Assembly: GCA_009691245.1 (NCBI GenBank)
Contig: SHUM01000001.1
Span: 124,001 to 188,000, forward strand
Direction: 5' to 3'
Length of the DNA: 64,000 bases
Origin: Acidobacteriota bacterium
GTDB lineage: Bacteria > Acidobacteriota > Terriglobia > 2-12-FULL-54-10
The notes under the pieces are model-generated. The model worked only from the letters and a program-made list of their open reading frames with translations, was not told the DNA's origin and searched no databases. Each line of letters opens with the position of its first letter. The stretch's first letter is position 1. Position numbers and translations under genes: made by a program. This document shows, one piece after another, positions 38,329 to 56,360 of this stretch.

Positions 38329-39069
38329 TTACGGAGCGACCGGAATGGTGACCGGACTGCTCTGTTTTCCGCCGATGCTGAACACCACGACGATGTTGGG
38401 AGCGGTACGCGTGCCGGGAGGAACCCGCACGTTGATCTGATTCAGTCCCACGAATCCCGGTGCGGTGCCGGAAAAAGTGACGGCGGCTGGGATGCCATCC
38501 ACGGTAGCGGTTGCGACCGTAGCGGTCTGGTTTCCGGTGGACGGCGCGCCGGTGGCCAGCGGGGGCGTTACCACGCCCAGTCCGGTTGCGAAAAAGACCA
38601 GAACTTCATCGGGGCGAGCAGGGTTCCCCGGCGAGACTGGAATGAAATTCTGGTGCAGGACCGCTGCAGTTCCAGTGCCCTGCTGATTCAGCGTGAAGAC
38701 GCCTGGCGCAAATGCATCTATAGGGACTGCTTGCTGCGCGCTGCTTTGCCCTCCCGCCGCGACCACGATAGACGCGGACGTCTGCCCCGCCATCTCAAAA
38801 GGAATCTGGATGCCCAACTGGCCCGGCGTCGAGTAGAACATCGGCGCGGCAATTCCGTTGAGAGTAACGCTCGCTCCTCCCAGCGTCGTTACCAGTCTGC
38901 CGTTCGGGCCGAAGCTTGAGGAAAGCACCGTGGACCCGTCGTTCAGATTCGTACCGAACACGGCGGCAATGGATCCCGGCGCAACCGGCGCGGGACTGGG
39001 AGCAAAGCTGCCGTTGTTGACCACTCCGCCGGGAAAGACGGCGGGAGCTGCTGTCGGCGGCACCGTCAA
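38329..39069 (-). pseudogene. TIGR03437 domain, 3' part of an interrupted SBBP-repeat gene
   Basis: The frame encodes V-V-N-N-G-S-F-A-P-S-P-A-P-V-A-P-G-S-I-A-A-V-F-G-T and continues to P-G-F-V-G-L-N-Q-I-N-V-R-V-P-P-G, the full TIGR03437 C-terminal domain. It is in the same frame as the SBBP-repeat frame upstream and is separated from it only by a TGA at 39082-39084. It has no ribosome site or signal peptide of its own. It is best read as the C-terminal half of one secreted protein cut by a nonsense codon. A sequencing error is possible. Confidence 0.75.
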
Positions 39070-39081
39070 CTGGGACAGAAA

Positions 39082-40278
39082 TCAGTCGAAATCTCCCGTC
39101 GGCGAACCGCTGCGCCCAGCTACGTACAGCCCCGTGGAGTTTGACGCCATACCGGCCGTCAAGTCGTCGTTGGTGGAGCCGAATTGCAGCGTCCAAATCA
39201 CGCTGCCGCTGCCGGAATACCTGCGTACAAACGGGTCGCTTAGCCCCGCCCGTGTCTGGCCTGGCAGCGTGGCGAATGTCGATCCTGCCACGTAGACGCC
39301 CGCTGCATCCGCGACCGCCGCCGACAGGGTCTCGGAAATCGTGAACGACTGCGTCCAGAGTTGGTTGCCGCCGCTGTCATATTTGCGAACCAAGCCGATG
39401 TTTTCGTTTCCCACGACATATACGTCGGTCCCATCGACGGCAACGGCTGCGGCGATATCGCCGCCCGCGGTGCCAGTCTGTTTCGTCCAGCCGGCATCCC
39501 CATTGGCGGCGTACTGACGAACGAATGCATCGTCCACTCCAAGGAAGGCTTGCGGCTGCCCCGGCAAGGTGCCGCGAACGGATCCGCAAACATGGACAAA
39601 CGTAGAGTTGGCGGCAACGCATACCGGCTGATCCATGCCTGGGGAGCCGAATTGGCGGGTCCAAAGCAGGTCGCCGTTGGCGTCAAACTTGCTTACGAAA
39701 GCATCACCGCCTCCGGCGGCGGTTTGACCTGGCAGGGTTCCCTGTGTGGTGCCGGCTATGTAGATCCAGCCGGCGCCGTCCAGCGCCACGGCTGTGGAGT
39801 AATCGGCCATTGTAGTGCCGAATTGGCGGGTCCATATCGGTACTAGGTTTAGGTCATACTTCCGAAGGAAAATGTCGCGGCCTCCCACGCCAACACCACC
39901 AGGAAAGATGGCATCCGCGGCGCCCGTGACGTAAACAGACGTACCGTCCGTGGCCACCCCGTACGCAAAACCAGCGCCCAACTGGTCCGTCCAAAGCGGA
40001 GCGCCGCTGCCGCCGGGCCCATACTTTTGGACGAACGCATCAATTCCTCCGGAACTGGTCTGACCGAGCAGGCCACTCGTGCGTCCCGCGACGTAAACGC
40101 CCGTGGCGTCGGCCGCGACTTCAAATATCTCATCGAAACTGCTGGTGCCGATCCGTTGCAGCGGGCCTGCTGTCTGAGCACTGGCCGGCGTGGCCAAAAC
40201 AAGGCCCAACAAGCTTCCAGCCAGACCTGCCAGAAAAATCTTCTTTAAGTATCTTGCGGGAAAGATGCCTGCCTCCAT
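39082..40278 (-). CDS. Secreted SBBP-repeat beta-propeller protein, truncated by in-frame stop
   Basis: The product is about 398 residues. A signal peptide (I-F-L-A-G-L-A-G-S-L-L-G-L-V-L-A-T-P-A-S-A) is followed by about six SBBP-type repeats of ~50 residues, each with a pattern like G-D-A-F-V-S-K-F-D-A-N-G-D-L-L-W-T-R-Q-F-G. Such secreted repeat proteins are common in Acidobacteriota and their role is unknown. The frame stops at TGA in G-D-F-D-stop-F-L-S-Q-L, right where the TIGR03437 domain should follow. AGGAGA 6 nt before ATG 40278 sets the start; the open frame goes up to 40362. Confidence 0.78.
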   Translation of the reverse strand: MEAGIFPARYLKKIFLAGLAGSLLGLVLATPASAQTAGPLQRIGTSSFDEIFEVAADATGVYVAGRTSGLLGQTSSGGIDAFVQKYGPGGSGAPLWTDQLGAGFAYGVATDGTSVYVTGAADAIFPGGVGVGGRDIFLRKYDLNLVPIWTRQFGTTMADYSTAVALDGAGWIYIAGTTQGTLPGQTAAGGGDAFVSKFDANGDLLWTRQFGSPGMDQPVCVAANSTFVHVCGSVRGTLPGQPQAFLGVDDAFVRQYAANGDAGWTKQTGTAGGDIAAAVAVDGTDVYVVGNENIGLVRKYDSGGNQLWTQSFTISETLSAAVADAAGVYVAGSTFATLPGQTRAGLSDPFVRRYSGSGSVIWTLQFGSTNDDLTAGMASNSTGLYVAGRSGSPTGDFD

Positions 40279-40964
40279 GATGTTCTCCTGAATGGCAAGT
40301 CTACATGCACTTTTCGCTGTCTCGAAGATACCAAATACTGCGGCGTGGGTCCACCTTTTCACTTCCAGGGGAAACAGGGTTCAGTCCTGCAAAGGTTAGA
40401 AAAGATGATTCGGAAACCATGTGGTTTTGACACGGGTAGGCTCGGCTCCGCCCGAATTGAAATGGAAGAGATTCCTGCCAAAGTTTTCCACCGGAGTTTC
40501 GGCACAGGGTGAACCAAAGTTGTGCGTTCAAAGATTACCCGCGAATGACGGCGCAGCGTTTACCTATCTGCCGTTTCAATTCCCGAGTAGTGCATCATAC
40601 GAAACTATCCCGAAACGGCGTTCTGGAAAATGGATCCTTCTTAGTTGGCTAGGGTTTGGAGAACCCATGGCTCGCGATTCAAACTGACTCACTATCCGAT
40701 GATTCCGATGCGGTGGCGGACTTGAGCGCGGAGGGTATGATTCCTGGCGCGCCGACCGTCCCGGCGTGCCGGGACGGCTACTCACGGTGGTGCCCTCCGG
40801 GCAACCGCGGAAGTCCCCCACGCTAAATTCTCTGTCCGCAAACAAGACCGCAAACAAGACTTGACACGCGGATTCCAATCGGTCATTCTCACACCATTCG
40901 GTGGAAATTTCTTTTGCCGTTCCAGGGTTCCTGATTCATTCGTTCCGAGGAGGAATTGTTTTCC
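40279..40964. other. Intergenic region, no gene recognised
   Basis: About 690 bp between divergent genes. Short open frames on both strands lack ribosome sites and family resemblance. A perfect hairpin lies at 40756-40777. It separates the SBBP gene from the cytochrome/TPP-enzyme cluster and should hold that cluster's promoter. Confidence 0.45.
40756..40777. repeat. Perfect 9-bp hairpin
   Basis: CCGTCCCGG and CCGGGACGG flank the tetraloop CGTG. There is no T-run after it, so it is not a classical terminator; probably a dispersed repeat. Confidence 0.6.
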
Positions 40965-43513: not shown

Positions 43514-43731
43514 AGGCTTGGAATACGTGTTGCAATTCAATCTGGGGTTTTGTAGCATACGTGCATCGTGCAGAATCGCGGTTTGCGGAATCAGGGCCCT
43601 ATTGAGATCTGAATCGTCCAAAACAATGGGTCAGTTGGCTTTGTCGACAAGGCTGGTGGTCCTGCTTGCTGCGCTGCAAACTTATGAGTTTTTTTACACT
43701 AGATCGATTGCTTGAAAGGAGTAGTCTCCAC

Positions 43732-45669
43732 ATGAAGCATGGAATGGGTCGATGGTTGCTAGGGCTGGTGTTAGTTCTTTCGGGTGGGATCGGCGCGATG
43801 GCGCAGCAGACGTTGAACGGGGTGCCTGCTCAGTTGGTTTCCTATCCGGACACAATTATCCACAATGGCAAGATCGTCATCATGAGCGACATGTCGCTCT
43901 CAAATTCACTGGGCCGCACGGTGCAGGCCATGGCTATCAAGGGCGACCGCGTCCTGGCCATCGGCTCCGACGCTGAGATGATGAGTCTCTCTGGTCCCCA
44001 GACGAAGAAGATTGACGTCAAGGGCCACTTCGTTTCGCCTGGGATCATCAACACCCACACCCATCTTCACGATGCCGCCGTCAACACCTGGGCGCGCAAC
44101 CATCCGGAGAAGACGGAGGCCATCCGCAAGAATTTCACCGTTACCGGCAAAACCTTCGATGACATCACCAAGGGCATCGAGTTGGTCATCAAGGAACAGA
44201 TGGCGCGACCGATCCCCGGCCAATGGGCCTGGATCGATCTGCCGACTGGGCAGTCCGGGTCGGGTCTTGGCATCGACTATCTGATGAAGAAGACGATGAG
44301 CCGCGATCAGTTGGATAAGCTGGCTCCCAAGCTCCCCGTTTTTGTCGGCGCGCACCCGGCGTTTTTGTGGAACACCGCTGCGCGCAATGCGTTCCTCGAC
44401 TGGTATGAGGTCGAACCGACCGACGCCAATGAGAAGAAAGCCATCACCATCGACACCACCATGGGCCGCTCGCTGGTGGCGGACTTCTACTTCGATAAGC
44501 ACATGGGCGAGCTTGCCAACGTCATCCGCGACTATCTGGAATATCAGACTGTCGTGGGCATGACCACGTTCAGCTCGCACATCGTCGGCCTGCGCAAGAT
44601 GCCCGCCTATACCCAACTGGTGCAGGAAGGCCGCATGCCGGTGCGCTTCGCATTCTCCAACCGCTATTGCCAGCAGATCGAAGTGGACATCCCTGGCTGC
44701 TTCCTGCGCGCCGGTGATTACGCTGGTCTGGGTGATCGCACCAATTACTTCTGGAACGTTGGCATCACGCTGGGCGGCATCGATAACGGCCCGCCGGCTG
44801 TCTGCACGACGATGGAAGCCCCAGCCGAGTTCAAGGCCAAGGAAGAGTGCATCATTCAGCCTGGCAATGAATATTGGAAGGCCGTCTACGCGGCGATCCG
44901 CTCGCGCTACCGCTATGTGGTCAACCACTCCTGGGGCGACAAGGGTGTCGATTACGTTCTCGACATCATGGACGAGTTGATCAAGGACAACCCGGAGAGC
45001 TTCAGCAATGAGTTCTTCAAGTCCCGCCGCTTCACTAGCGACCACTGTGGATTCTATCCCACCCCCAGCCAGCTTCCCCGCATGGCGAAGTTCGGATGGA
45101 TGGTCAGTTGCACCACCAACGCGCTCACGCGTAGCGCTCCGTACCTGCAAATCTACGGCATGAAGTACGAGAACCGCCTGGCACCCATCGCCAGTACCAT
45201 CAAGGCCGGCGTTTACGCGACGTTTGAAGCCGAGCTGGGTGTGGACATGTCCAGGCCCGAAAACACCGTCGAGCCGATGCATCTCGACGCCAAACCTTTC
45301 ATCACCCGCATCAACCGCTGGGGCGACACCATCTCCAAGGTGGACGCAGTGGATCGTGAAACGCTGCTCAAGATGAGCACCATCTGGGCCGCCTTATACG
45401 TTCTGCGCGAGAAGGAACTGGGATCGCTCGAGCCGGGCAAGTTCGCCGACTATGTGGTCTGGAACAAGGACTACCTCACCGTGCCGATCGACGAGTTCCA
45501 GACGATCTATCCGCTGATGACCGTGGTGGGCAACAAGACCATGGTTCTGCGCGAAGAGTTCGCCAGGGTTCTGGGTCAGCCCGCGGTTGGCCCTCAGGCC
45601 AAGTGGGACTTTATAGACGACAAACCCGAGGCGGTCGATTTGCTGAACCCCGGGGGCAGCGGCGAATAG
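43732..45669 (+). CDS. Exported amidohydrolase (Amidohydro_3 type), metal motif intact
   Basis: The product is about 645 residues with a signal peptide (L-L-G-L-V-L-V-L-S-G-G-I-G-A-M-A-Q). The amidohydrolase fold starts at P-D-T-I-I-H-N-G-K-I-V. The metal motif is P-G-I-I-N-T-H-T-H-L-H with His109, His111 and His113. Further His are in V-V-N-H-S-W-G-D-K-G and T-S-D-H-C-G-F-Y, and the end has L-G-S-L-E-P-G-K-F-A-D-Y-V-V. Members hydrolyse C-N or C-O bonds in rings or amides. GAAAGGAG precedes ATG 43732. It resembles the two minus-strand amidohydrolases but keeps the His motif they lack. It is followed by the propeller gene with the in-frame UGA. Confidence 0.88.
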   Translation: MKHGMGRWLLGLVLVLSGGIGAMAQQTLNGVPAQLVSYPDTIIHNGKIVIMSDMSLSNSLGRTVQAMAIKGDRVLAIGSDAEMMSLSGPQTKKIDVKGHFVSPGIINTHTHLHDAAVNTWARNHPEKTEAIRKNFTVTGKTFDDITKGIELVIKEQMARPIPGQWAWIDLPTGQSGSGLGIDYLMKKTMSRDQLDKLAPKLPVFVGAHPAFLWNTAARNAFLDWYEVEPTDANEKKAITIDTTMGRSLVADFYFDKHMGELANVIRDYLEYQTVVGMTTFSSHIVGLRKMPAYTQLVQEGRMPVRFAFSNRYCQQIEVDIPGCFLRAGDYAGLGDRTNYFWNVGITLGGIDNGPPAVCTTMEAPAEFKAKEECIIQPGNEYWKAVYAAIRSRYRYVVNHSWGDKGVDYVLDIMDELIKDNPESFSNEFFKSRRFTSDHCGFYPTPSQLPRMAKFGWMVSCTTNALTRSAPYLQIYGMKYENRLAPIASTIKAGVYATFEAELGVDMSRPENTVEPMHLDAKPFITRINRWGDTISKVDAVDRETLLKMSTIWAALYVLREKELGSLEPGKFADYVVWNKDYLTVPIDEFQTIYPLMTVVGNKTMVLREEFARVLGQPAVGPQAKWDFIDDKPEAVDLLNPGGSGE

Positions 45670-45965: not shown

Positions 45966-48146
45966 ATGTCAGCTAGATTGCACACGGCCCCACTTGCTGT
46001 AACGGCGGCGATTCTCGCCACACTGGCTTTCGCTACGTTCTGGGTGATTCGTGGCGGGTCCGTACAAAATTCAGAATTAGCCAAGAACTCCGAAGTCGCG
46101 CGCCGCGGTGGCTCAACGCAGTTGGTGGGCGTTACACCCATGCAGACGACGGGTGGAGAAATGTGTGAATGGATGCCGGCCAGCGCCAGCGCTTCCATGT
46201 CGGCAGCGATGCTGCAGTCCGCTCCGGCGGCTGGCGGCGCCGCTTCCGTTCATCTGGACCGCGCGCCGGTTCGCGAATTGAAGGACACCTACCCAACTTA
46301 CAGCGCCATCGCGCAGGACGCCCGCACCGGCGACATCTTCATGCAGGACGAAAATCTGTTCGGCATCCGTGTGTTCGACCGCAATACCAACACACCTCCC
46401 AACGCCGCGTTCTCCGAGCCCAAGCGTTATTTGGGCGGACACAACACCAAGCTGGAGTTCAATTGTGGTCTGTACATTGACCCCAAGACCGGCGACATCT
46501 ATTCGGTGAACAACGACACCACGGATTTGCTGGTGATCTTCGAGGCCAAGGCCGAGGGCGATGTCAAGCCCAACCGCGAGTTGAAGACACCGCACGGCAC
46601 CTACGGCATCGCCGTCGATGAGGAAAAGGGCGAGATGTACATGACGGTGGAGCACACCAACTCGATCGTCGCCTATCCCAAAGCCGCCAAGGGAACCGAC
46701 AAGTTCCTGCGCGAAATTCGCGGCCTGAACACCAAGCTGGCCGATCCGCACGGCATTTCGCTGCACACCAAAAAGAACTTGATGCTGGTTACCAACCACG
46801 GCAACACGCTCGAGGGAACCGCGCCCACCTACGGAAAATTCCTCCCGCCCTCCATCACGTTCTATCCGATGGACGGCGTCGGCAACATCGCGCCGGTCAG
46901 GACCATTGCCGGTCCCAAGACGCGCTTGAACTGGCCCGCGCACATCTGGATTGATGAGGCGCGCGAGGAGTTTTACGTGGCCAACGACGCCGATCATTCC
47001 ATCCTGGTGTTCGGCATGGACGATGATGGCGACGTGGCACCGCGCCGCATGATTCGCGGACCCAAGACGCAGATCCGCAATCCCATGGGCGTCTTCGTCG
47101 ATTTGAAGAACGATGAGCTGTGGGTCTCCAACATGGGCAACCACCGCGCCACGGTTTACGCGCGCACGGCCAACGGCGATGCCGAGCCCAAGCGCGTGAT
47201 CCGCAGCGCCCCGACCGAGAAGATCGCGCAAGCCATCGGCAATCCCGGCGCCGTGGGTTATGACAGCAAGCGCGAAGAAATTCTCGTGCCCAACTGAGTG
47301 GCTCACCCGCAAATTGCGGTTTTCGCCAGGCTGGCGAAAGAAAACTCCCCAACCACCCGTTTGCTGGCAGGCCAGAAGACTTATCTGAGCCGCACCATGC
47401 ATGACGTACGCTACGATCCCGTCAATGACGAGATGCTGGTTACCAATCCGTTTGCCCGCGCGATTCTGGTTTTCCGCGGCGGAGCCGATGGCGAGGAAGC
47501 TCCCGTGCGCATCATTCAGGGCTCCAACACCATGCTCGGCGATCCCAAGCGTTACGCCGGCGGTCCCGATCGCGTCGAGGTTAATCCTGTTCACAACGAA
47601 ATCTACGTTCCTGACGGCTCGCGCGTATTGGTTTATGATCGCCGGGCGACCGGCAACGTCGCGCCCATCCGCGTGCTCGAAGGCCCTGATACGCTGCTGG
47701 ACGATGAAGGCACATTGGCCATTGATCCAATCAACAACATCTTTGCCGTCGCGCAGGATACGGTCCTGGCCGGCGCCACGAAGATGGCCCACATCCTCAC
47801 CTTTGCCCGTATGGCGGCGGGCAACACCAAGCCGCTCGGTGAAATCGCCGGTCCAAAAACGGAGATCATCCGCATCAATCAGTTGCAGATGCATCCGCCG
47901 AAGGGCTGGATTATTGCAGCGCAGCCTGGATTCATTGATGTTCAGAAGCCGGAAGGCGTATTCATCGGCGTCTGGCACATCAAGGACAAAGGCGATGTCG
48001 CTCCCCGCTTCAAGATCGGCGGCACAGCCAAGGGCGTAATGTTAAAGCCTCGCGGCGTGGCCATCAACGTCAAACATAAAGAGCTGCTGGTGGCGGACAT
48101 GCGCTTGAACGCCATCCTCACCTACTCGGTTCCTGAACTTTTCTAA
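45966..48146 (+). CDS. Periplasmic NHL-type beta-propeller, probable selenoprotein (copy 1, Sec444)
   Basis: Two abutting open frames in the same phase (45966-47294 and 47298-48146) are separated only by TGA at 47295-47297. Read through, they give one protein of 726 residues. It has an N-terminal signal anchor (A-A-I-L-A-T-L-A-F-A-T-F-W-V-I), the conserved M-C-E-W-M-P-A-S-A (Cys67) and E-F-N-C-G-L-Y-I-D-P (Cys167). About ten NHL-like blades follow, with units such as E-F-Y-V-A-N-D-A-D-H-S-I-L-V-F. The UGA falls in the blade I-L-V-P-N-U-V-A-H-P-Q-I-A-V-F, at the loop position after the Asn. A hairpin with loop AGGCT follows at 47321-47339. AAGGAGG precedes ATG 45966. Without read-through the propeller would be cut in the middle. 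Selenocysteine is inferred; no sel genes are in the window. Confidence 0.82.
47295..47339 (+). promoter_or_regulatory. In-frame UGA with bSECIS-like hairpin, copy 1
   Basis: After TGA (47295-47297) a 24-nt spacer leads to TTCGCC-AGGCT-GGCGAA, extended by another T-A pair and a G-T pair (47321-47339). The small apical loop with two G fits the bacterial SECIS consensus that binds SelB. A weaker hairpin (CCGC/GCGG) lies at 47307-47319. Copy 2 has the same arrangement. Confidence 0.75.
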
Positions 48147-51443: not shown

Positions 51444-53708
51444 CTAGTTAAACATTTCGGGGAAATAGAAAGTCATCACCGAATTCAAGCGCTTATCGCT
51501 GGCGATGATGCTCTTGTTCTTTTCATCGATGGCCACGCCGCGCGGCATCTGAAAAATGCCGTTCGGTCCGCCGATGGTCCACAGCGGAGGATTGTTGCCG
51601 CCTTCCGCGTAGCTCCAAATGCCCAGGTAGGATTCCGGACCAGTCAATGCCTCACCCGTGGGACGGTTGGTTCCCAAAATCAGTTTCTTCTTGGGATAGA
51701 CCGCAAAAGGACCGCCCAGCGACCGGGGTCCGCCGACCATCATCTTGGGAGCCACGTTGCCGTTGTCGGTGCGGTTGAAGATGCGGAAAGTAGTGCCACC
51801 ACCCCCGCCGCCGCCGCCGAAGCCACCGCCACCGGCCACGATGATCAAGTTATTCAGCGCATCGCCCGCCACGGCGGCCGCGCCGAGGCCGGTGTTCTTG
51901 CCTTCGAGTACGCGGATGGGAGCGGTGTCGCCATTGGCACGCCGGTCGAACACCAGCAGGTAATCGCCCTGTGGGACGTATATCTCGTTGGCCACCGCGT
52001 TCAGGCCCAGACGATCCGGGTCCGTCAGGCGTGTCTTCGAGCCTTGAATCACGCGCACCGGCGGCTCCTGTCCGTTAGCCGCGCCGCGGAACGTGAGAAT
52101 GGCCTGCGCGAATTGCTGCGGCACGATGAACTCGTCGTTGACCTCATCGTAGGAGATGGCGTGCATGGTGCGACCGAGCAGCGTCTTCTGGCCTTCAATC
52201 TTGCGGACGGGCTGAGAGTTCTGGTTCGCCATCCTGGCGAATACCGCGATCTGCGGATGGGCCACTCAGTTAGGCACCAGAATATGTTCGCGCTTGGTGT
52301 CGTAGGCGACCGGATGCGGGTTGCCGATGCCCAGCGCCGGCTCGCCCAGCGGTCCGGAACGAATGATGCGCAGCGGAGCGATGTCGCCGCTGGCGCCGAG
52401 CGGATAGACCGTCGCCGAGTGGTTCATGAAGTTCGCGGCCCAGACTTCCTTGTTCTTGGCATCCACCCAGACGCCGGTGGGATTGCCCAGCATGGTTTTC
52501 GGTCCCTGGATTTTGCGCTTCGGGGCCACGTCTCCGTTGGCGGTTACGTCAAACACCAGCAGCGAGCTGTCCATATCATTGGCCACGTAGAGCTCGCCGT
52601 TCACTTCATCCACAGCCAATCCCGTCGGCCAGTTCATTTGGGTCTTGGGGCCGGTGATAACGCGGAGGGGAGGCACATCGCCCTTGGCCTTCAGGTCGTG
52701 GACGATGATCGAAGGCGGCAGGCTGCGGCCCGAACCGGCGATGGCGTTCTCGCGTTCCAACGGCCAGTTTTCCTTCGGGGCGTTTCCGCGGCCCCTGCCC
52801 AATTCGCCCGCTTCGCGCGGCTTGCGCGAGCTGACCGCGCCGTGGTTGGTGATGAACATCCAATTATTCTTGGTGTCGAGCGCGATTCCGTGCGGGTCGG
52901 CCAATCCCGTCTTCTCGCCCTGTAGAAGTCGGATGGGGGACTCATCCTTGGTAGCGTATTTCTTGAACACGACCATGGAGCTGTCGTGCTGTAGCGTGAG
53001 GAACATCTCTTCGGCGGCCTCATGCACAGCGATGCCGAATGTCCCGTGCGGCGTGTAAAGCTCGCGCGTAGGCGGCACATCGCCCTTGGCCTCGCGGCTG
53101 AAGATGACCAGCGTGTCCACCGTGTCATTGTTGACCGCGTAGATGTCGCCGTTCTTGGGGTCGATGTAGAGTCCGCACTGAAACTCAATCTTGGTGTGAT
53201 CGCCGGCCAGCACACGCTTCGGCTCGGTCATTCTCGCCGACGGCGGGGTATTGGCGGTGCGGTCATATACCAGAATCTGGAAGAGGTTCTCGTCGGTCAG
53301 AACCACTTCGTTGTTGATGGGATCGACAGCCACGGAACTGTAAGCGGCATAAGGATCACGAATCGTGCGAATCGGTTTCAGGTCGCCGCGGTTGATCGCC
53401 TGACGTGCAGTTGTGGAGGCGGTGCGCTGATCGGCGCGTTGCTGCAAAGCCGCGACCAACTTCTCCTCAGCGCTCGCTGGCATCCACTCGCACATGGGCG
53501 CGCCGTCAACACCGGGCATCTGGTCGATTGACACCAGTTGAGCCTGGCCGGTCGCCCGGCGGGCCAGCGCTTTTGCCGGATTAATGGACGCCTGCTGGCT
53601 GCTCAGGAACACTCCGGTTGCCAGGAGCGCCGTTAGGGCCATTGCCCAAAGGGTTGCGACACTGAATCGGATTTCTGGACGAATCATTTCACTTTTACGC
53701 ACGGACAT
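51444..53708 (-). CDS. Periplasmic NHL-type beta-propeller, probable selenoprotein (copy 2, Sec481)
   Basis: Two in-phase frames (to 52269, and from 52265) are separated only by TGA at 52266-52268. Read through, they give 754 residues. It has a signal anchor (L-W-A-M-A-L-T-A-L-L-A-T-G-V-F-L), M-C-E-W-M-P-A-S-A (Cys73), E-F-Q-C-G-L-Y-I-D-P (Cys178) and the same blade order as copy 1. The UGA sits in I-L-V-P-N-U-V-A-H-P-Q-I-A-V-F-A-R, identical to copy 1, although the two proteins are roughly half identical overall. A Gly-rich run (G-G-G-G-F-G-G-G-G) lies in the second half. GGAGG 9 nt before ATG 53708 decides the start. No other Cys occurs after the UGA in either copy. Selenocysteine is inferred. 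Confidence 0.82.
52225..52268 (-). promoter_or_regulatory. In-frame UGA with bSECIS-like hairpin, copy 2
   Basis: On the minus strand TGA (52268-52266) is followed by 24 nt and then TTCGCC-AGGAT-GGCGAA (52241-52225). Spacing, stem and loop pattern AGGNT match copy 1. Silent sites between UGA and hairpin differ at several codons, while stem codons are unchanged. Confidence 0.75.
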
Positions 53709-53961
53709 AAACGGGGGCCTCCATGCCATTAAAAAAAACGAGCAATATGAACAAGCGAAACTCCCGCAATTCTATCAGATACAGCGGGTTGGACGCCAGC
53801 GTTTTGGGGACTAAAAGCGCAAGTCCCGGCAGGCAGTGGGGGAACTGGAGATGCTGCTCCGGCGAGTACGCCGAGCCGTTCCAGTTAGTCATGCCCATTG
53901 TGATGCGACTGGCGTCAAATTGGGTGTCTCGCCAGCACCAGGATGTTAGCGACTGCGTTGG

Positions 53962-55734
53962 CTACAGTCCGCCGTAAACGATCGTGCCGCCTACGATGGT
54001 CGCGGTTACGGTCATCTTGTCGATCTGGCTATCCGGCACGGTCAGGAAATCCGCGCCCAGCACGGCCATGTCGGCGCGCTTGCCTTTTTCGATGGAGCCG
54101 AGCATCTTGTCTTCGTCTATGTAGCGCGCCGCCCACAGTGTCTTCATGCGCAATGCCGTCGGGCGGTCAATGGCCTGGTCGGGGCCCCAGACGCGGCCCT
54201 TGTCATCCTTGCGCGTGATGTAGTGCTGCATTTCTTCCCACGGATCAACGCCCTCGATGTGAACCTTGAAGCCTCGCTTGATCAGCTCCGGCACGGGTTG
54301 GATGTCGTGGATGCGGTCGCCGTAAAGTTCCGCCGCATTCGCCGGGTTCTGCCACATCTTGCCGAGACCCTTGCGGAAGTCGAGCTGCTCCATCTTGGGA
54401 TAGAGCCGCGCGTCCCAGAATAGATTGTGATCGAGGCCGAAGGGGCGGAACGTCTGCTTCATCACCATGTCGGGCTGATTCAGTCCCGCCTCGATGCCGT
54501 CGAGCCATATCTTGGTCGAGAGGTCCCCGACGTTATGGATGCCGATGCTGTTCCATCCATACTTGGTGGCCACCAGCAGGTTGTTCCACTCCGTGAGACT
54601 CTTGTCGATCTTGGGATCGTCAAATTGGTTGTTGTGCGGACCATAGCCGATCCAGGTGTTCTGCCCGTGTCCGGGGAAGGCCAGCCCGCCGGAGCGAAGT
54701 TTAGCGTCCAGAGTAAGCGCGCTGCCCGTGTCGGCGTTGCCGTCCATCGCCGCCAGGCCCGCGCCCACGATCTGCACCATGTCGCCGAGGCCAAAGTCCA
54801 CGATGTTGCCCAGCCGCCGCAGATAGGCTTCCGCGTTGGGGTTCTGGCGCAGGAAGTCATGGGCCGCGTACACGCGCATGGTCAGCTCATTGCGGTGGTA
54901 AAGAATGTTCACTACCGAGAGTGCGAAGCCCTGCGTATGGGCCACCATCGAGGTGATGCCCTTCTTGCTCAGGTTCTCGAACATGTCCTTCTGCTCTTGC
55001 AGCATGGCTTCGTCGATCCTGGGCCACGGTCGCAGGTCCCAGCCCGCCACGCCCATCGCGTGTCCGTAGATCTGCCCGTTGGGACGCCCGCTGGTGTCCT
55101 TGATGATGGATGGGTGGTTCATGCCGCCCGGTGTGGATGCCGCCACTTTGTCGAGCATCAGGGTATTGACCACCATGTCGAACGATGTGGTGTTGATGGC
55201 CACGGGATGGCGCGGCGAGATGGGGTCGAGGTCGGCGCGGGTCATGGCCATGATGTCCGGCGCCTCGTCCGGCGGTCGGATGTAGATGGGCTGCCCGGCC
55301 GGCTGTGTCTCAACATATCGCTTCACGGCGTCGAGCAACTCTTTCTTGGTCTTCAGGTCCCGCATGGTGCCCAGCACCTTGCCGCCGATCAGCGTCTCCT
55401 TGTAGAGATTGCCCGCGATCATGTCGTTGTCGGCGTCGGTGGCGACAAAGCCGGGGATGACCGTGCGCCCCTTCAGATCGAACACCCTCGTCTCGGGCCC
55501 CTTCAAGCGCAGCACGTCGGCGTCGCTTCCCACGGCCAGAAATTTGCCGTCGCGCACCGCCACGGCCTGCGCCTTCGCGAAGCTCTCATTCACGGTGAGA
55601 ATGTTTCCATTATGGAAAATCGCCTGCGGATAGGAGAGCAGCTCCGCCGGCACGCTCTGCGCGGGAGCAGATTCCAAGGCGAGCAGGGAGGCGATCAGGG
55701 CAAAACAAATGGCGAGCGATTGCTTGCGTATCAT
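53962..55734 (-). CDS. Exported amidohydrolase-fold protein lacking the HxH metal motif (copy B)
   Basis: The product is 590 residues. A signal peptide (S-L-A-I-C-F-A-L-I-A-S-L-L-A-L) leads to an Amidohydro_3 fold: S-Y-P-Q-A-I-F-H-N-G-N-I, V-A-V-R-D-G-K-F-L-A-V-G-S-D and the end L-G-S-I-E-K-G-K-R-A-D-M-A-V-L. Where the family has H-x-H, it reads P-G-F-V-A-T-D-A-D-N-D (Asp100, Asp102, Asp104). Later His residues (M-V-A-H-T-Q-G, I-H-N-V-G-D, L-D-H-N-L-F-W) remain. Metal binding may be changed or lost. GGAGG ahead of ATG 55734 sets the start. It lies 26 bp after the cohesin-like gene and 253 bp before the propeller gene. Confidence 0.85.
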   Translation of the reverse strand: MIRKQSLAICFALIASLLALESAPAQSVPAELLSYPQAIFHNGNILTVNESFAKAQAVAVRDGKFLAVGSDADVLRLKGPETRVFDLKGRTVIPGFVATDADNDMIAGNLYKETLIGGKVLGTMRDLKTKKELLDAVKRYVETQPAGQPIYIRPPDEAPDIMAMTRADLDPISPRHPVAINTTSFDMVVNTLMLDKVAASTPGGMNHPSIIKDTSGRPNGQIYGHAMGVAGWDLRPWPRIDEAMLQEQKDMFENLSKKGITSMVAHTQGFALSVVNILYHRNELTMRVYAAHDFLRQNPNAEAYLRRLGNIVDFGLGDMVQIVGAGLAAMDGNADTGSALTLDAKLRSGGLAFPGHGQNTWIGYGPHNNQFDDPKIDKSLTEWNNLLVATKYGWNSIGIHNVGDLSTKIWLDGIEAGLNQPDMVMKQTFRPFGLDHNLFWDARLYPKMEQLDFRKGLGKMWQNPANAAELYGDRIHDIQPVPELIKRGFKVHIEGVDPWEEMQHYITRKDDKGRVWGPDQAIDRPTALRMKTLWAARYIDEDKMLGSIEKGKRADMAVLGADFLTVPDSQIDKMTVTATIVGGTIVYGGL

Positions 55735-55760
55735 GCGATTCCTCCAATGACGTATTGCAA

Positions 55761-56360
55761 CTAATGCGTGAAGAAGAAGCAGCCGACGATGACCGGCTCC
55801 TGCGTGATCTTCACCAAGCCGTACTCCACCTGCGCCTGCGGGCTGTCGGGCAATATCGGCTGATCGTCGATCCACGCCTCGGGGTTAATGCGAATCACCT
55901 GGTCGGGAGCTGGGTCAGCGACTTTGAAAAATAACGTGGCGATCTGGCCGCTGGGAAACGCCGCGTCACTTCCGGCGGGCATCTCGAAATTCATTTCCAG
56001 CATTTGTTCGTCGCCTGCCGCCTGGCTCCCAGCGGCCTTCATCTGGAGCTTCACGCGCCGCGAGAGATAGGCGTCTTCCATGCGCACATAGGACAGCACC
56101 TCGCCGGGAAACGGGAAACGCGCACGCAGCCTCTTCACATTGCCCGTGCCGGACTTCTGCGCGAACAGCACCATGAGACTGACTTCATTGCCGGGTTGGA
56201 CAAACGCCTTGCTAAAGCTAAGCGTGTAATCCGTCTCGCGCGGCGGCGGGGCGTCGTCAGGTGAATACGCATCCTGCCCCCGCGCCACCGCGCAAATCAG
56301 AGCGAACGCAGCGAAGCCATACAGTAGCGCCCGGCCCGAACGAGTAAGAATCTTCTGCAT
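55761..56360 (-). CDS. Secreted cohesin-like protein ending in CFFFTH (copy 2)
   Basis: The product is about 199 residues. A signal peptide (L-L-Y-G-F-A-A-F-A-L-I-C-A-V-A-R-G) is followed by a beta-rich cohesin-like domain (F-V-Q-P-G-N-E-V-S-L-M-V-L-F, F-P-S-G-Q-I-A-T-L-F-F-K-V) that aligns with the protein at 50768. It ends Y-G-L-V-K-I ... V-G-C-F-F-F-T-H-stop. The 14 bases coding C-F-F-F-T are identical to those of the other copy. The start is ATG 56360 or, less likely, 56378, which immediately follows the upstream stop. It sits between two amidohydrolase genes with gaps of 18 and 26 bp, clearly one operon. Confidence 0.78.
   Translation of the reverse strand: MQKILTRSGRALLYGFAAFALICAVARGQDAYSPDDAPPPRETDYTLSFSKAFVQPGNEVSLMVLFAQKSGTGNVKRLRARFPFPGEVLSYVRMEDAYLSRRVKLQMKAAGSQAAGDEQMLEMNFEMPAGSDAAFPSGQIATLFFKVADPAPDQVIRINPEAWIDDQPILPDSPQAQVEYGLVKITQEPVIVGCFFFTH

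Follow-up and report, generated by a model that had tools for sequence, protein, structure and literature searches.

The question raised by this locus is whether a single in-frame TGA breaks a beta-propeller gene in two or is read as an amino acid, and if so, as which one. The gene lies in the window, by which we mean the whole stretch of 64,000 nucleotides of an Acidobacteriota genome that was analysed. It starts with ATG at 45966 and its TAA ends at 48146, and the TGA at 47295-47297 divides the frame into 443 and 282 amino acids. If the TGA is read as a residue, the product has a length of 726 aa and about 12 repeats of a propeller unit (repeat unit motif P-x-R-x-I-x-G-P-x-T ... E-x-x-V-x-N), in which the UGA falls in the context V-P-N-U-V-A-H-P-Q. 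Repeats on both sides of the TGA share the register. The preliminary description, made from the sequence alone, had pointed to two frames abutting at one TGA and to one propeller read across it with its blades in register; both observations hold, and the two frames make up a single propeller gene.

45966-48146, plus strand: putative selenocysteine (Sec) beta-propeller gene; 726 aa with Sec444 and about 12 propeller repeats after an N-terminal helix
47295-47297, plus strand: UGA codon, predicted Sec444; the 86 distinct homologues have UGA (84) or a Cys codon (2)

The TGA is not there by chance, because all 21 homologous loci of the source genome (3.43 Mb in 96 contigs), this one included, carry an in-frame TGA within one common motif, which in translation mostly reads [VA]-[PA]-N-U-V-[AS]-[HQ]-P. 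The preliminary description, which dealt with one gene, understated the extent of the phenomenon: the family comprises 21 genes, and Sec is strictly conserved in it. A second copy, which that description did not mention, is located in the window itself, and a scan of the window for long frames split by a single TGA returned nine cases, two of which are the members of this family.

51444-53729, minus strand: second family member in the window; TGA at 52268-52266, SECIS within 52221-52268

Among 86 distinct Acidobacteriota sequences from 12 genera, the column at the Sec site contains 84 TGA, two Cys and no other residue (the raw tally of 97 TGA was inflated by loci drawn from two collections). 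The homologue alignment proposed in the preliminary description thereby gives a column of UGA or Cys only. Nearly all family matches have one TGA, and those fetched without it are either the two Cys forms or pieces lacking the site. These counts bear directly on the idea of a sequencing error or a decaying pseudogene. It could be argued for from the fact that the in-frame stop is single and that a partial copy at a contig end (C18:2-1924) bears an additional TAG. However, it is refuted by conservation, since 84 distinct sequences belonging to 12 genera share this TGA, and we regard its probability as negligible; the sequence error that the preliminary description had allowed for is ruled against on the same grounds.

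The family was found in seven of 396 sampled genomes of the phylum (E below 1e-60) and in 12 of 61 relatives (E below 1e-30), many of the surveyed genomes being MAGs. Several relatives have 17 or more copies. Tandem pairs are frequent among the family genes (L011, L013, L014 and G000:C66:9938-14824), which suggests ongoing duplication. No relative was detected in the viral contigs searched, and the plasmid search returned one distant propeller (33%) from Paraburkholderia, in which Val next to a gap, and no Cys, stands at the Sec site.

The window also contains a propeller gene of a second kind (38332-40362, minus strand) that is coherent through an in-frame TGA at 39084-39082. It consists of SBBP repeats followed by the Solibacter C-terminal domain TIGR03437, and its UGA is at a site occupied by Ala, Pro or Ile in other repeats. 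The SECIS covariance model described below has no match in this gene, and no homologue with UGA was seen. A broken gene and an error are among the possible explanations.

Residues Asn443, Sec444 and Val445 are invariant in an alignment of 30 sequences, and His479 is present in 99 of the 100 rows covering its position. The codon following the TGA deserves attention, as it is GTG in nearly all copies. Taken by itself, the resulting TGAGTG would fit a real stop next to which translation restarts, with the two chains assembling into one propeller. However, three copies (L007, L022 and L019) have GTA, GTT or CTG instead, and the Val codon is accounted for by the invariant residue. In addition, the Cys homologues have a sense codon at the site and both halves in one frame, and a restart leaves unexplained both the UGA/Cys-only column and the decay of the downstream hairpin in the Cys forms. 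A stop followed by a restart is thus highly improbable.

The hairpin in question is one of two that follow the UGA:

47307-47319, plus strand: second hairpin CCGCA-AAT-TGCGG, between the UGA and the SECIS; 88% of cells paired
47321-47339, plus strand: putative SECIS hairpin TTTCGCC-AGGCT-GGCGAAA, loop 47328-47332; covariation present, broken in Cys homologues

The SECIS hairpin starts 24 nt past the TGA, where the preliminary description had placed a hairpin with loop AGGCT, and its apical loop is spaced 30 nt from the UGA. Its folding energy by itself is unexceptional (z -1.8), and what is exceptional is its conservation. In nearly every family copy, the UGA is followed downstream by TTCGCC-AGGNT-GGCGAA or a similar sequence. 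Each of the six core pairs is formed in 94-100% of the 84 UGA sequences, and all six are formed in 74 of the 84 (88%), the remainder having five. By comparison, when synonymous codons were resampled according to the usage of the family itself, a mean of 16% of sequences, and never more than 29%, had all six pairs. Compensatory changes are observed at three of the six core pairs: the third changes from C-G to U-A in seven rows, the fourth from G-C to C-G in two and the fifth from C-G to A-U in one. Covariation as strong as that observed never arose in 500 shuffles. In the SECIS loop, Arg is encoded by AGG in 48 of 51 cases, compared with 12 of 227 for the corresponding motif of other blades, indicating that it is the RNA and not the protein that selects this codon.

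The published bSECIS limits are a loop of 3-9 nt with G in its first two positions, a stem of 4-16 bp, a spacing of 16-37 nt and an MFE at or below -7.5 (PMC13188914). The hairpin agrees with them: the loop rule (G in the first two positions, then G or U) and the 30-nt spacing hold in 84 of 84 UGA sequences, and 81 of the 84 are within the MFE limit. With a covariance model of the element, 21 strong matches were obtained in the source genome (E at most 2.5e-9), which are exactly the 21 family genes, and then nothing below E 0.48. The hairpin at 47307-47319 shows compensatory changes at three of its five pairs, e.g. from CCGCAGATTGCGG to CCGAGAATCTCGG. Since the published bSECIS model is a single stem-loop (PMC13188914), the tandem of two hairpins may be a feature of the propeller family.

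In the two Cys homologues (L090 and L091, with codons TGC and TGT) the SECIS stem is broken (four of six pairs; MFE -2.4 and -4.1, as opposed to the median of -10.9). In the tree they form a single clade (support 100) that is nested within the Sec forms, beside one with UGA. It looks as if Cys was derived from Sec in this clade and the SECIS decayed alongside, which would make it a ready case of a Sec-to-Cys change.

The source genome contains everything needed for selenocysteine insertion that the preliminary description named for a search (selA, selB, selC and selD). A tRNA-Sec with the anticodon UCA was identified at 73 bits over the full Rfam model, and SelA, SelB and SelD are all present. 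SelD (L147, G000:C9:54052-54990) has its own in-frame UGA at the catalytic position (AGUASKLSPKVL) and is an independent, known selenoprotein. Closely upstream of the tRNA-Sec gene there are two Acido-Lenti-1 RNA matches (54 and 38 bits):

L034 1263-1308, minus strand: Acido-Lenti-1 match (Rfam RF01687)
L034 1409-1455, plus strand: Acido-Lenti-1 match (Rfam RF01687)

Among the other carriers of the family, tRNA-Sec was found in 13 of 17 (E below 1e-9) and SelB in most. The gaps are in family-positive genomes that are 76-98% complete and fragmented, though two are rated 96-98%: G396 (82%) is without SelB and tRNA-Sec, G400 without SelB only, and G427, G234 and G338 without tRNA-Sec only. We also considered co-occurrence with SelB as an argument, yet SelB is so common across the phylum (286 of 396 sampled genomes) that this is weak evidence without discriminating power.

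The fact that 21 genes tolerate an in-frame UGA could also mean that the codon is read as some other amino acid (Trp, Cys or a near-cognate readthrough product) owing to a general or leaky change of the code. Nonetheless, UGA still ends ordinary genes here. TGA terminates five of the 21 family genes themselves, directly after the conserved C-terminal PE-x-F, as well as several annotated genes of the window, including those for IspD and YgbB, and consequently there is no general reassignment of UGA. The substitution at the site by Cys alone, the SECIS hairpin and the full Sec machinery also speak against a changed code, and we consider it about as improbable as the restart.

Taken together, the UGA/Cys-only column, the fit to the bSECIS limits and the presence of selA, selB, selD and tRNA-Sec support the candidate new selenoprotein of the preliminary description. 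The UGA at 47295-47297 is very probably read as selenocysteine, and on comparative evidence it is near certain that 45966-48146 is a member of a new selenoprotein family. SelB with Sec-tRNA(Sec) would bind the hairpin at 47321-47339 and insert selenocysteine at the UGA at 47295, yielding one 726-residue protein. A hydrophobic helix at residues 9-30 is likely an export signal or anchor, through which the protein would be exported.

What the protein does is a more difficult question. In Pfam, NHL repeats (PF01436) score above the cut-off (26.8 versus 20 bits) and nothing else is secure; the SBP56 domain is absent from the result with E up to 1. The match to the 6-phosphogluconolactonase equivalog PRK11028 reaches 25.9 bits compared with a curated cut-off of 370. 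The AlphaFold model is all-beta (pLDDT 86, pTM 0.82) with disorder at residues 57-92, and the best PDB matches in the fold search are generic multi-blade propellers with low TM-scores of about 0.2-0.4, which say nothing about function. The repeat-model match and the modelled fold mark the protein as an NHL/YVTN-type beta-propeller, with about 12 blades predicted from the model and the repeat count.

Sec444 follows the invariant Asn in one blade, and the nearly invariant His479 opens the next. Propellers are usually laid out so that the loop behind strand two of a blade is on the same face as the loop leading into strand one of the following blade, and Sec444 and His479 are accordingly predicted to be able to meet. 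It is plausible that the UGA position lies on the propeller face with functional residues. Whether the two residues on this common face make up a redox or metal-binding active site is a weaker suggestion, which we put forward tentatively. Many family members have an N-terminal CxWxP segment. Most members have Cys167 and many have Cys67, neither being universal. A Cys67-Cys167 disulfide was considered, and it was set aside as the presence of the two residues is not clean and the patterns searched were crude.

These cysteines, together with the absence of a known enzyme domain, might instead indicate a selenoprotein whose Sec is non-catalytic and binds or stores metal or selenium; selenium-binding protein is likewise a propeller. 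However, the SBP56 family is unmatched in Pfam, the conserved His479 and invariant Asn443 suggest an active site, and 21 divergent copies are not readily explained by storage. We therefore consider a non-catalytic Sec unlikely, though far from negligible. Our best guess is that the protein is an exported enzyme, predicted to use Sec together with a conserved His close by on one face of the propeller.

Neighbouring genes provide some further hints. Both copies in the window adjoin an amidohydrolase gene:

43666-45669, plus strand: Amidohydro_3 family protein, directly upstream of the gene at 45966-48146; candidate functional neighbour
53962-55875, minus strand: Amidohydro_3 family protein, adjoining the second copy; candidate functional neighbour

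The 64 flanking genes sampled include 12 Oar-like TonB-type outer-membrane proteins, eight amidohydrolases and a few cytochromes and molybdopterin enzymes. Oar-like TonB-type receptors are numerous in Acidobacteriota. The association of the family with TonB-type receptors or amidohydrolases is only suggestive.

With bacterial bSECIS selenoproteins such as formate dehydrogenase and SelD, the family shares a UGA with a GG/GU-loop hairpin 16-37 nt downstream, as well as the presence of tRNA-Sec, SelA, SelB and SelD; the difference is that here the protein is a beta-propeller with 21 paralogues in one genome. It resembles NHL, YVTN and 6-phosphogluconolactonase-like propellers (PF01436, PRK11028, YncE) in repeat pattern and fold, but the matches are weak and far below the NCBIfam cut-offs. 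Unlike those propellers, it has about 12 blades, Sec, a conserved His and, in many members, the CxWxP segment. To our knowledge, the SBP56 family does not encode Sec. SBP56/methanethiol oxidase is likewise a selenium-linked beta-propeller (PMC10277263), whose Pfam match is lacking here. The FCYXU-type TonB-dependent receptor selenoprotein identified by deep-Sep (PMC12013277) is also a recent non-thioredoxin Sec family of the cell envelope. In that case, however, the receptor itself has Sec, whereas here TonB-type receptors are only neighbours. The same study reported three selenoproteins in one acidobacterium, and its authors noted that Sec proteins without Cys homologues can be missed (PMC12013277).

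The majority of Sec proteins known so far adopt a thioredoxin-like fold (PMC13188914). A 2022 review of 87 selenoprotein families (PMC9312934) lists no propeller, a catalogue of May 2026 with 119 prokaryotic families (PMC13188914) describes none of them as a beta-propeller, and NCBIfam of June 2026 has no matching selenoprotein model. The view of the preliminary description that NHL propellers are outside the known selenoprotein families is borne out by all three, and relative to them the family appears to be new. A 2026 groundwater-MAG survey, cited as reference 66 of PMC13188914, reportedly gives many unvalidated candidates, with 63 selenoproteins in one Methylomirabilota MAG, and may possibly list the family without a name.

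Standard gene calling halves every copy, and a pair-based search needs Cys homologues, which are nearly absent; this would explain why the family has been overlooked. We know of no earlier beta-propeller among Sec proteins, and this family would be the first. It is tempting to speculate, at a strength that falls short of a firm proposal, that it represents a new class of exported beta-propeller selenoenzyme. Expansion to 21 divergent genes would perhaps have given each copy its own substrate, possibly imported by a TonB-type receptor acting as its partner. That a 3.4-Mb genome devotes 21 genes of a single family to Sec, a costly amino acid, is striking and, if the proposal is true, the propeller selenoenzymes would be the principal consumers of selenium in the cell.
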